Shown here piece by piece: positions 1 to 4,558 of a DNA stretch of 64,000 nucleotides. The stretch is taken from NCBI GenBank assembly GCA_020723305.1, contig DYJC01000011.1:1-64000 (forward strand), read 5' to 3'. The position numbers and the translations under genes are program-made. The DNA comes from Desulfosudis oleivorans. GTDB lineage: Bacteria > Desulfobacterota > Desulfobacteria > Desulfobacterales > SURF-7. The notes beneath the pieces are model-generated. The model was given only the letters and a program-made list of their open reading frames with translations. It ran no database searches and was not told the origin of the DNA. Position 1 is the stretch's first letter. Each line of letters starts with the position of its first letter.

Positions 1-2322
1 GCCATTGACGAAGCCCATTGCATATCCGAATGGGGTCATGATTTTCGGCCGTCCTATTTGAAATTGCCCTGGATGCGACAGGAATTAGCCAAACAAAATC
101 CGGAACTGAGTCTCATCTCCCTCACAGCAACAGCAGGGCAGCAGGTTGAAAAAGACATACGGAACATTCTTAAGCTTGCTGAGTCCGATGTTGTGCGTGA
201 TACGGTGGCGGACAGGGAACGTTTCAGTTTCCAGATTGTCACTGTCAATGATGGGGAGAGCAAAACAAAGGTTTTTCATAAAATACTGCTGAGTGATTTG
301 CCAAAGGCTCTCAAGCAAAATTCATTCTCTGAAATGCTTGATCGAACTAACAGTCGCAATGAAAAGGATGTCGGTATCGTATTCTGTATCTATGCAAATC
401 CGCATGGGAAAAGTACGGTAAAAGATGGAACATCGCACTATCTCTTTGAAACCATGCAAGATGTTGAACCAAATAAGGTTTATATGACCCGGCGCGGGAG
501 ATATCCCAAGTACGACCTTGGTGCATTTTCCAGCGGTAAGGTTCGAGTGTTTGCCAGCAAGCCGCCGACTTTGTGCCCTTATTGTCACTCTTATAATTAC
601 AACAGTCAGGGAAACGTTCCAATCAGAACAAATGACTATGACGATAATATGGATATGTTTGACCAGGAAGACGTTCCTTCAGTCAGGATTGCCGGGCAAA
701 AAATCTGTCTTCGGTGTGGCAAACGATTTTTTGATAATGATTTGAAACCATATAGTGTTAAAGCCTGGGAAAAGATTATCGGGACAAACCAGGTTGATTT
801 TAAGAACAGTCATTTAGACATTCTTATTGCCACCAAAGGGTTTGGTATGGGAATCGACAAAGGTAGCGTGCGATTTGTCATCCACACATCTCTTTCATCC
901 GGTATTGAATCCTGGTATCAGGAAGTCGGTCGCGCCGGGCGGGATAATGAACGCGCCCATATCGCTTTGATTGCTGATTCGCCTAGTGAGATATGCCGAA
1001 AAGAACTCGAAAACATGGACGGGGCAAAAAGGCCGTCATGCAGTTGGACAGGAAGATGTCAGCACAGCCGGAATTCTATTTGCGATTATGGCAAACAACA
1101 TATTTTTATCACTCGAAGTTATCCAGGTGCTGAAACAGATGCTGTTTACACACTGAAAGTGCTGGATAAATTATTGACAAGCTATGCCAAAACGACTGAA
1201 GAACCAATTAAAATTAAATTCTTGTATAGGACGGGTAGTATCAGCCGTCGTGAAATTGCACTTTATCGGCTGATGACATTGGGGCTGGTTAAAGATTATA
1301 TGGTTTCCTATGAAAACCCTCCCTGCTTTGAGGTAACGTTATGTTTGAAGGGATTACCTGACACCGAGGAAGATGTATGTCTTTGGAAAAATCGAATGCA
1401 AACCAAGCTGATTGCATATATGAGCCACAGGGATGATGACAAGAAAAATCCAATCAGTCTTAGTCGAATTAAGGATTACAGGCCATTATCCGATTTCCAG
1501 GCAAGAATAAATAATTTTGCAACACTGCCACAATTCCCGCATTTTTTTCAAACTGTTTATGAACACCTTCTCTTAATATTAGATCATGTTTACAAAGATG
1601 TTGTTAAGATGCGGTATGATATGCTGTGGAATCTTTTCAGTGTTGTTAGCAGCGAGAAGTGCCAGAGGAAAATAATTTTGCCACATTTTGAGAAAAAGGA
1701 CAGCGTAGAAGAAAACTATGAATGCGGGTGCTGCAATGTTTGTTCTCCAGAGCTGGATTTTCTTGATCGTGTCCGGCCAAGAAAGAAAAATCTGAGTGTG
1801 GAATCAACAAATCTTGAACTTGATGAACTGTTTAAGCGTAACGAGTTGGATATCGATAAGCTGAGAAAGATTTGTGAGGTATTTAGCGAATATCGTACCG
1901 CAACATACAGCAGAGCCCGCGCTGTGATAGAAGGCAATCCAAACAACCTCCCGGCTCTTTATCTTACAAGGGAATTTTCACCGCAGGCGGAATTGGGAGC
2001 CAACACTAGAAGGTTGTTGCGGACCGCTAACGAAAGGATGATTTCTCTTTTGCAATTGCGTGAGTTATTTAAAACTTCCGATCCACAGTTCAAACCTGAC
2101 CTTTTGCTACTTTTGAATGTCGAGGATACGACCTGCGATTCCCTGGAAGGATGGCAATTCCTGATAGAAGAAATTAGAAATTTGCGACATATAGATAATA
2201 TTCAGATTTTCGCGTTGTATGATTGTCTTGATTTTTTTGTCTTGATTGATGAGATTCTTCCGTCTGATACAGATAATTATCGAAGGAAAGCGGAAAAAAT
2301 GGAGGAAATACTGAATGCCTGA
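1..2322 (+). CDS. RecQ-family DNA helicase, 5'-partial, with zinc-finger insertion
   Basis: The gene enters from upstream of the window; the frame is open from base 1 and its first residues are the RecQ DEAH box (bases 7-18) followed by CISEWGHDFRP, a RecQ signature. About 773 residues are visible. Motifs V and VI are present (ATKGFGMGIDK near base 830, QEVGRAGRD near 920-950). Between motif III and motif V, where RecQ has only a short link, there is an insertion with paired cysteines (CPYC near 577, CLRC near 707) that looks like a zinc ribbon. A RecQ-type zinc-binding cluster follows (KCQRK, then CGCCNVC near 1725). The C-terminal 200 residues are not recognised. RecQ proteins are 3'-5' DNA unwinding enzymes. 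The next gene overlaps its stop by 8 bp, so the two are probably co-translated. The zinc insertion makes housekeeping RecQ unlikely; a DNA-modification or defence helicase (for example DpdF-like) is possible but not shown. Confidence 0.85.
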   Translation, partial: AIDEAHCISEWGHDFRPSYLKLPWMRQELAKQNPELSLISLTATAGQQVEKDIRNILKLAESDVVRDTVADRERFSFQIVTVNDGESKTKVFHKILLSDLPKALKQNSFSEMLDRTNSRNEKDVGIVFCIYANPHGKSTVKDGTSHYLFETMQDVEPNKVYMTRRGRYPKYDLGAFSSGKVRVFASKPPTLCPYCHSYNYNSQGNVPIRTNDYDDNMDMFDQEDVPSVRIAGQKICLRCGKRFFDNDLKPYSVKAWEKIIGTNQVDFKNSHLDILIATKGFGMGIDKGSVRFVIHTSLSSGIESWYQEVGRAGRDNERAHIALIADSPSEICRKELENMDGAKRPSCSWTGRCQHSRNSICDYGKQHIFITRSYPGAETDAVYTLKVLDKLLTSYAKTTEEPIKIKFLYRTGSISRREIALYRLMTLGLVKDYMVSYENPPCFEVTLCLKGLPDTEEDVCLWKNRMQTKLIAYMSHRDDDKKNPISLSRIKDYRPLSDFQARINNFATLPQFPHFFQTVYEHLLLILDHVYKDVVKMRYDMLWNLFSVVSSEKCQRKIILPHFEKKDSVEENYECGCCNVCSPELDFLDRVRPRKKNLSVESTNLELDELFKRNELDIDKLRKICEVFSEYRTATYSRARAVIEGNPNNLPALYLTREFSPQAELGANTRRLLRTANERMISLLQLRELFKTSDPQFKPDLLLLLNVEDTTCDSLEGWQFLIEEIRNLRHIDNIQIFALYDCLDFFVLIDEILPSDTDNYRRKAEKMEEILNA

Positions 2323-3202
2323 AATCACCAATAGAGAAAGAATTATAAAAAAACTTCGAGAGTTTGATGAGCGTATGGACGGGGCCATTACAGCTGCAAA
2401 AATATTGGCTGAGGTAAAAGCAGATGCACTACAAAAAAAAGACTTTTCAGAGGGCATCTGGCGGGAAATTATAGAAGCACAGGAATCTCTTCAAGATATT
2501 CATGTGGAATGGGACGATTTAAAATCGGATATTACAAAGGCAAGGGAGAGTCTAATTAACGAAATCCATCAGACCCTTATTAACCATCAAGAACTTGAAC
2601 TCTTGTCTCGGGAACATCAGAAGAAAACAGCGGTCGACCGTGAAACAATAATTGCACAGGCTAATCAATTGCAGCGATTATTGAATAGCTTGAGACAGGA
2701 CTTGGGGGTCGAAATTAAAGGAAATCTGAGCCAGGCAGAGAAATTAATTCAAATCAGGATTGATGAAATTGAAAAGGATTTTAGGGCGAAAATACAAGTT
2801 GCAGAAAGGGGAATAGAAGAAAAAACAGAAAAACTACATGACAGCTTGCATGGGGAAATGGAGGTTTTTAAGAAATATGTCAAGAAAGAATTGAGCGAGC
2901 ATCAACAAGGTGTTGAGCGAAATCTGACTGATTTTTTAAATAAACAAAATATCTTGGTACAGAACCTTACTCAGCAAATAGATGGTTTTCATCGTTCGGC
3001 CCAGACGCTGTCATCGCAACAGGGGCAATTGCAAATAGAAGTTGCAGGGCTGGAAGAAAAAATTACGAATCATTCAGCAAGACAAGATGCTGGAATTAGA
3101 CGTATTAGTGATGAAATGAGTGTGATTGCGCGACGATTGGAACAAGTCATAACACGATTACAAGACAGACCGTTATTGGGGCGCTATTTCAATAATATTT
3201 AA
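2315..3202 (+). CDS. Long coiled-coil protein coupled to the helicase
   Basis: A 295-residue protein whose ATG lies inside the last codons of the helicase gene (8-bp overlap), which implies translational coupling. It is rich in Glu, Lys, Gln and Leu, has almost no Pro or Cys, and reads as a nearly continuous heptad-type coiled coil from about residue 40 to residue 280. No signal peptide, membrane segment or catalytic motif is visible. The family is not recognised. Its position suggests that it forms a complex with the helicase, for example as a bridging or DNA-sensing partner, as coiled-coil subunits do in several defence systems; that role is inference from linkage alone. Confidence 0.8.
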   Translation: MPEITNRERIIKKLREFDERMDGAITAAKILAEVKADALQKKDFSEGIWREIIEAQESLQDIHVEWDDLKSDITKARESLINEIHQTLINHQELELLSREHQKKTAVDRETIIAQANQLQRLLNSLRQDLGVEIKGNLSQAEKLIQIRIDEIEKDFRAKIQVAERGIEEKTEKLHDSLHGEMEVFKKYVKKELSEHQQGVERNLTDFLNKQNILVQNLTQQIDGFHRSAQTLSSQQGQLQIEVAGLEEKITNHSARQDAGIRRISDEMSVIARRLEQVITRLQDRPLLGRYFNNI

Positions 3203-3299
3203 TCTGATAATCTATCACTATAAAGGTGGTAATCTTTTTTAAAAAGGAAAAAAGATTTCATATATCTGAGCCGGTGGCGGAATATAGAAAGTTTTTCCC

Positions 3300-4297: not shown

Positions 4298-4558
4298 TTA
4301 TTTTTTCAACCTATATGCTTCTCGCCGATGTCTAATTCTTAAAATCAATACTGTATCATCAACGATTGAATAAATTATTCGATAATCTCCAATCCGAAAT
4401 TTTCGCAGGCCTGAAAATTTTCCGGTTAATGCGGGAAAACTGTCTGCCTTATCAGGTAGTTCCTGTTCGATTTTTTGTAAAATTTTATCGGCTTGATTCT
4501 TATCTATTTTTTTTAGATCACGAGCGACTGTCTTTTTGAATGCAATCTTATAACTCAA
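4298..4558 (-). CDS. RelE/ParE-type toxin
   Basis: An 86-residue basic protein with the RelE-superfamily layout: an N-terminal helical hairpin (VARDLKKIDKNQADKIL), then beta strands carrying GLRKFRIGDYRIIY and a C-terminal IRHRREAYR. RelE-like toxins cut mRNA on the ribosome or, in the ParE branch, inhibit gyrase; the basic residues in the final strands fit either. The start overlaps the antitoxin gene by 11 bp, so the two form one operon. Length is normal for the family and the gene looks intact. Which branch it belongs to cannot be settled by reading. Confidence 0.9.
   Translation of the reverse strand: MSYKIAFKKTVARDLKKIDKNQADKILQKIEQELPDKADSFPALTGKFSGLRKFRIGDYRIIYSIVDDTVLILRIRHRREAYRLKK

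Follow-up and report, generated by a model that had tools for sequence, protein, structure and literature searches.

The window analyzed here, which comprises the first 64,000 nucleotides of contig C36 (GenBank DYJC01000011.1) of the Desulfosudis oleivorans assembly GCA_020723305.1, begins with a pair of overlapping genes that probably represents a little-described immune system. The upstream gene encodes a RecQ-type helicase with a DUF559-type domain at its N-terminus, the downstream gene a coiled-coil protein of 295 residues, and we consider it reasonably likely that their products form a two-component nuclease-helicase defense effector with the coiled coil as its scaffold or regulator. Both genes, the order of their domains, the first part of the helicase gene, the conserved pairing, and the island in which the pair lies together with the corresponding empty sites are read directly from sequence. 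RecQ is known from textbooks as a genome caretaker; for a branch of it to carry its own nuclease and a rod-shaped partner would be a new, immune use of this motor. In the following, G000 denotes the genome of the window, other G-numbers denote further genomes, and L-numbers denote the loci compared.

A sequence-only reading of the window had described its first gene as a RecQ-like helicase with motifs DEAH and VI and a CPYC/CLRC insertion ahead of motif V, and these elements lie where it had seen them (Table 1). The frame is open from base 1 and has no start codon inside the window; Pfam detects Helicase_C in it (3.2e-8), and the insertion, a C4 motif that may bind a metal, sits between DEAH and motifs V and VI. 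The long C-terminus without a known domain, another element of that description, agrees with Pfam, which finds none in the last 190 residues; a search of the Protein Data Bank with a C-terminal profile returned matches at E-values of 0.06-1 only, mostly to RecQ and WRN zinc regions, and no solved relative beyond these. In the predicted structure of the window's helicase part, which was aligned with 23 ordinary RecQs, the mean predicted local distance difference test score (pLDDT) is 52, and the insert and the C-terminus are unreliable. The 8-bp overlap with a coiled-coil gene was likewise confirmed: the partner's heptad z, a measure of heptad periodicity against shuffles, is 4.9 (Table 1), and its model is nearly all helical (single sequence; mean pLDDT 69, predicted template modeling score 0.28). 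Pfam, NCBIfam and PADLOC returned only weak matches of the coiled-coil type for this protein.

The upstream part of the helicase gene, which had been noted to lie outside the window, was located at the end of contig C47. A search of G000 with the N-terminal part of the relative from Thermomicrobium roseum yielded a frame running up to the final base of this contig; C47 and C36 share 9 bases, at the end of the former and the start of the latter, the frames are in register, and the joined protein has 1203 residues. By itself, such an overlap is weak evidence for the adjacency of the two contigs. On C47, a gene resembling transporters of the major facilitator superfamily (MFS) precedes the island described below, and in all three other congeneric genomes (G080, G363 and G143) this gene is directly followed by what in the window stands downstream of the pair (resumption of the window sequence after the MFS gene: kinase-like gene in G080, ~4.27 kb in G363, ~4.9 kb in G143). 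Because the overlap is in frame and the synteny holds in three of three congeneric genomes, C47 and C36 are very probably genomic neighbors.

The N-terminal domain encoded on C47 matches Pfam DUF559 above the cut-off (5.8e-8) and MTES_1575 below it (3.9e-8), and this part of the helicase also matches DEAD (1.1e-13). The domain holds DFAIDGPTKLAMEVDG, which displays the D..ExD pattern of PD-(D/E)XK nucleases. DUF559-type domains are predicted nucleases that we take to be members of the PD-(D/E)XK fold, and RecQ-type motors are 3'-5' ATP-driven DNA helicases.

This architecture recurs in relatives. Upstream of the Walker A motif, a D..E(I/V)(D/E)G pattern is present in 16 of 25 family helicases, a count that omits a dubious match in L187. 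A Pfam scan for DUF559, which covered the C47 part, L113, L171-L173, L180, L185, L106, L107, L182 and L189, found the domain above cut-off in the first six of these (C47 part, L113, L171, L172, L173 and L180) and below cut-off in L185; L107, without a DUF559 match, has a weak one to MTES_1575. The C4 insert is found at the same position in five of the 25 (the window, L106, L107, L108 and L113), and a pattern search found it in none of 22 ordinary RecQ rows, one of which (L016), a misread frame, would not reveal it in any case. As the same motif recurs at the same place in four loci besides the window and in no ordinary RecQ, the insert is not a chance feature. The sequence-only reading had singled it out as a mark that housekeeping RecQ lacks; this absence stands, while the insert does not extend to the family as a whole, whose wider hallmark looks like the nuclease fusion rather than the zinc insert.

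Pairing with a coiled-coil gene could be read at 24 of the 25 helicases, the contig of L181 stopping with its helicase. In 22 of these 24, window included, the gene immediately downstream and in the same orientation encodes a coiled coil (-98 to +102 bp, according to which start is taken), and in the remaining two such a gene is nearby, behind a transposase gene in L107 and 778 bp away in L184. The co-occurrence check proposed along with the defense idea thus revealed adjacent or nearby partners throughout, and not a family in which the helicase mostly stands without one. In L179, for instance, a coiled-coil frame of 342 residues with a heptad z of 7.9 and a terminal hydrophobic stretch overlaps the helicase. 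Across 33 partners, the heptad z has a median of 7.4 and a minimum of 3.1 (one partner is cut by its contig), compared to a median of 0.4 and a maximum of 3.7 (L059) in 48 genes downstream of ordinary RecQ. These controls derive from a scan of genome contigs that was dominated by ordinary RecQ and gave 80 loci; the 48 used are those in which the next frame lies on the same strand and has at least 100 residues. In a second control with the overlap filter off, 74 ordinary RecQ loci were readable, 48 of them had a testable same-strand frame of at least 100 residues starting -110 to +150 bp from the RecQ end, and no frame reached a z of at least 3.

In 16 of 24 partners, the last 60 residues include a strongly hydrophobic 19-mer (Kyte-Doolittle at least 2.2), likely a membrane helix. 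Among the eight partners without it are those of the window, L108 and L113, as well as that of L171, which is cut by its contig. The recurring tail anchor makes membrane placement a directly testable idea.

Family members occur in Pseudomonadota, Chloroflexota, Deinococcota, Bacteroidota, Rhodothermota and Thermomicrobiota, in addition to the window's own group, and on plasmid records of Thermomicrobium, Thermus, Deinococcus, Haliscomenobacter, Salinibacter, Rhodothermus and E. coli. A search with the C-terminal 440 residues gave matches in 13 of the 389 genomes of the class, G000 included. Profile A1, at an E-value of 0.001, matched 10 of 400 genomes in the phylum of an Anaerolinea genome (8 taken in, 5 judged family members) and 43 of 395 in the phylum of an Azovibrio genome (stretches from 12 taken in), many of the matches in both phyla being short and directed to the zinc region of RecQ frames of 600-800 residues. 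Scans of viral contigs gave no relative, and of 26 phage records that match the L113 helicase, none covers 80% of it, the matches listed involving the RecQ core only. The closest sequence found is a contig-end fragment in G282, with 68% identity over 263 residues; there, too, the partner gene overlaps by 8 bp, and its product is 55% identical to the window's partner.

In a tree that left out L112, L117, L105 and L033, the 25 family helicases are set apart from 20 ordinary RecQs by a branch with support of 99/93.7. The row closest to the window is L113 of G029, with 37.6% identity over 1155 aligned residues. The best tree splits the five rows with the C4 insert between two places, and a single clade is not rejected (approximately unbiased test, p-AU 0.469). 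Two helicase fragments with a partner, L114 and L190, entered the partner statistics and not the tree. Further sequences were left out as ordinary RecQ frames (L178, L175), as a misread frame (L016), as open at both ends (L177), as a broken Thermus copy (L109), as a near copy of L193 (L195), or as incomplete (L116, L121, L122).

The pair lies in a recent-looking genomic insertion. Compared to G080, G363 and G143, G000 has ~7.3 kb of extra sequence that is absent from all three, with a G+C content of 0.396-0.408 versus 0.426-0.439 in the flanks. The island consists of genes for an AAA_15 ATPase, a 182-residue protein, the nuclease-helicase and the coiled coil, in this order. The first two match the PADLOC system PDC-M47 (Table 1), which, despite sharing the island with the pair, forms a separate two-gene system that ends 346 bp before the helicase start. 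PD-T4-4, a model of which the ATPase also matches, was identified by functional screening for anti-phage systems (PMC9519451). The proposal that the window's genes are a defense module is thus supported in its genomic setting, because the pair shares its island with a PDC-M47/PD-T4-4 system and because the empty sites exist; the defensive function itself is something we infer, as are the nuclease and helicase activities, a physical complex of the two proteins, and its target.

Defense-type genes are found near 10 of 27 family loci, a total made up of the 25 loci in the tree and, in addition, L114 and L190. Besides PDC-M47 in the window, these are genes for BrxC in L190 (1876 bits), a DrmD-like protein in L185 (2.1e-127), PDC-S02 in L189 (1.5e-28), a defense-type reverse transcriptase in L187 (5.2e-96), DrmA in L191 (4.3e-181, with an annotated DUF1998 gene), a DpdE/DrmD-like protein in L107 (2.7e-162), a helicase with a phosphoribosyltransferase (PRTase) end in L108 (SngC 3.3e-33, PsyrT 2.9e-17), an annotated type I restriction subunit and methyltransferase in L192, and an annotated CARF protein in L193. 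The family is therefore met near BREX, DISARM-type, reverse-transcriptase and PD-T4-4-type genes. In one scan, 7 of 10 neighbor proteins had no match at 1e-10. ParB-like genes lie directly upstream of the helicase in L107 of Thermus thermophilus AA1-1 (L107:9461-10357, ParB_N 1e-26) and in L113 of G029 (L113:5077-6096, ParB_N 4.3e-7). Next to the CARF gene of Rhodothermus marinus, a second coiled-coil-like frame stands beside a large opposite-strand frame (L193:13352-16967), possibly a different kind of pair.

Table 1. Features of the gene pair and its island in G000; positions without a contig name refer to the window.
Feature	Position	Strand	Basis
Left edge of insertion	C47:128929 (outside window)		alignment with G080 stops
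AAA_15 ATPase	C47:129366-130763		PADLOC PDC-M47A 1.9e-204; PD-T4-4_A 6.8e-155
182-aa protein	C47:130763-131311		PADLOC PDC-M47B 4.4e-37
First part of helicase gene	G000:C47:131658-132956 (outside window)		frame to contig end
3' part of nuclease-RecQ helicase gene	1..2322	+	P0001, 773 aa = residues 431-1203 of joined protein
Motif II DEAH, then CISEWG	7..18	+	sequence and pattern table
C4 zinc-ribbon-like insert (CPYC 574-585 to CLRC 706-717)	574..717	+	pattern
Motif V TKGFGMG (832-852) and motif VI QEVGRAGR (919-942)	832..942	+	sequence
RecQ zinc-binding-like region	1606..1743	+	Pfam RecQ_Zn_bind 21.5 bits, cut-off of 25 missed, residues 536-581
C-terminal extension, fold unassigned, common to closest family members	1744..2319	+	alignment A1
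GGAGG, probable ribosome-binding site of partner gene	2301..2305	+	9 bases upstream of partner ATG
Coiled-coil partner gene P0002, 295 aa	2315..3202	+	8-bp overlap with helicase; heptad z 4.9; helical model
Right edge of insertion	3286..3287		alignment to G080 empty site picks up again at 3287
RelE/ParE-like small protein, just outside island	4298-4558	-	family judged by eye; also after MFS gene in G363

Several observations weigh against the interpretation as a nuclease-helicase defense system. Nine of the 25 family helicases lack the nuclease pattern; Pfam found no DUF559 match in L106, L182 and L189, nor in L107, and L106 and L108 show no N-terminal nuclease domain in the alignment. In the window itself, the fusion depends on a C47/C36 junction that is very probable by overlap and synteny, rather than contained in one assembled sequence. 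A first tree with 49 rows, including long branches, supported the ordinary RecQs with just 57/47 and placed the window and L113 among the degraded rows described below. Likeness among the partners of different subgroups may reflect no more than the similar composition that coiled coils share, which limits the case for their homology. Finally, the other 17 of the 27 loci have no defense match or have neighbors outside the scan, several of them looking like housekeeping genes (e.g. at L106 and L113), and the neighborhoods were counted without a matched control, which is why we regard them as support for a role in defense and not as proof.

If the pair is indeed a defense effector, its large subunit would combine a DUF559-type (PD-(D/E)XK) nuclease, a RecQ-type helicase, the C4 insert and the C-terminal extension. 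The helicase would load on invading DNA at ends, gaps or replication intermediates and would move along and unwind it with ATP, so that the attached nuclease could cut. The coiled-coil rod, made from the overlapping start, would oligomerize and hold the helicase, restraining or positioning it. Those rods with a probable membrane helix (16 of 24) would put it at the membrane, where phage DNA enters, and the window's rod, which has no such helix, would be cytosolic.

Within the window's order, eight loci (L110-L112, L115 and L117-L120) encode a relative of 609-911 residues, followed by a coiled-coil gene of 493-1205 residues with a heptad z of 6.8-12.6. GxGKS is kept in L112 only and altered in L110, L117, L118 and L119; L111, L115 (the 5' end of which is cut off) and L120 are not alignable there. 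DEAH is kept in L118 only, with DKAH in L110, DNVH in L112, DDAH in L117 and DRAH in L119, L111 and L120 aligning poorly, and QxxGRxGR is intact in none of the seven alignable rows, several of which score near zero there. The family-type C4 insert is absent from this lineage, and L112, the one member scanned, has no Pfam nuclease match. It is conceivable, if short of probable, that the family as a whole is an unnamed immune system of wide distribution, whose rods, anchored by their tails or cytosolic, hold a PD-(D/E)XK-RecQ nuclease-helicase in place against incoming DNA, and that in the window's order a descendant lost most of its helicase catalytic motifs while its rod lengthened to 493-1205 residues, the motor being turned into a structural element. 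Such a degraded branch, if real, would show what is left of a system of this kind once its motor is lost.

A repair or replicon-maintenance module, with a specialized RecQ and a structural partner kept on plasmids and some chromosomes, would account for members on plasmids of seven genera, from Thermomicrobium to E. coli, for the ParB-like genes just upstream in L107 and L113, for the housekeeping-looking neighbors at L106 and L113, and for the degraded relatives in the window's order. We nevertheless think it rather unlikely, as the insertion that carries the window's pair is young and includes PDC-M47 genes, defense-type genes lie close to 10 of 27 loci, and the distribution is patchy (13 of 389 genomes of the class).

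A toxin-antitoxin-like arrangement, in which the nuclease-helicase, when free, harms the DNA of its own cell and is restrained by the coiled coil until infection, takes its model from RqlHI: RqlH, which combines a RecQ-family helicase with a PRTase domain, is reported to be genotoxic when its operon partner RqlI is missing (PMC4670107). Like the window's helicase, those of RqlHI and PsyrTA are RecQ-type proteins that fall outside the clade of housekeeping RecQs and share an operon with a small partner, and the tight gene overlap would suit the idea. So would L194 on the E. coli plasmid pLAO18, which joins features of both sides: a DprA gene precedes a RecQ protein of 1558 residues with a nuclease-type pattern, which is followed by a coiled coil with a membrane helix (L194:2576-8720). 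The flanks of L194 carry primase, DnaB-like helicase and ligase genes, and by eye the plasmid looks phage-like. The same study places the toxicity of RqlH in the PRTase domain (PMC4670107), and the window pair differs from RqlHI/PsyrTA in having a nuclease domain and a C4 insert and no PRTase: Pfam gave no PRTase match for the window part, the C47 part, L113, L106 or L107 (the last four with reporting to E 0.1). Moreover, its partner is a coiled coil and not a DprA protein, and the island holds neither a DprA-type partner nor any other candidate gene. An identity with RqlHI/PsyrTA is therefore rejected, and regulation of this toxin-antitoxin kind appears improbable.

That the helicase is an ordinary RecQ variant with a chance neighbor can be largely dismissed: its core is that of RecQ, and all six complete relatives pass the RecQ family model TIGR00614 (223.6-289.6, cut-off 219.8; 153.4 for the window fragment alone), but none passes the RecQ equivalog model TIGR01389 (240-301, and 158.7 for the window part, cut-off 640.2), as the other, ordinary RecQ of G000 does (750.8 bits), and a coiled-coil partner accompanies the family in several phyla but is not seen at ordinary RecQ loci. 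Scarcely any weight remains for DpdF, the RecQ-like helicase of the 7-deazapurine-in-DNA (Dpd) system and a lead given earlier, which is the best PADLOC name of the window's helicase (8.8e-46) and is rejected by the curated model NF041063, with scores of 104.6 for the window part and 137-188 for the six complete relatives, far short of its cut-off of 550. Besides the pair, the island holds PDC-M47A/B and no dpd genes, this locus being the part of G000 to which the search was confined. The ordinary RecQ of G000 scores 201.7 with NF041063 and 776.9 bits with a PADLOC DpdF model; the PADLOC name is uninformative because its models also take ordinary RecQ. Annotation in this way hides the family, the records of which read 'DEAD/DEAH box helicase' or 'RecQ family helicase', and PADLOC DpdF.

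PADLOC has no name for the pair that we could find, and the open-licence literature yielded no description of a RecQ/coiled-coil or DUF559-RecQ defense pair, a name published elsewhere being possible. The word 'RecQ' is absent from the main text of four defense papers (PMC12458937, PMC12839542, PMC13092281 and PMC10853773).

Zorya comprises ZorA, which has a coiled-coil tail, and ZorD, a helicase-nuclease. The likeness to the family described here is one of working principle, a membrane-anchored coiled coil with a helicase-nuclease; the partner scans gave no MotA/ExbB motor part, and the family helicase is RecQ-type, not SNF2-type. The partners of L180 and L182 match ZorA models weakly (1.7e-8 and 8.2e-8), which may reflect coiled-coil composition.

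G000 also contains a second unusual RecQ, L105 (G000:C1, near 357958-359031), in a frame of 1754 residues. By eye, its start resembles an exonuclease-like region, which is followed by a RecQ core, and the pattern search shows no C4 insert in it.

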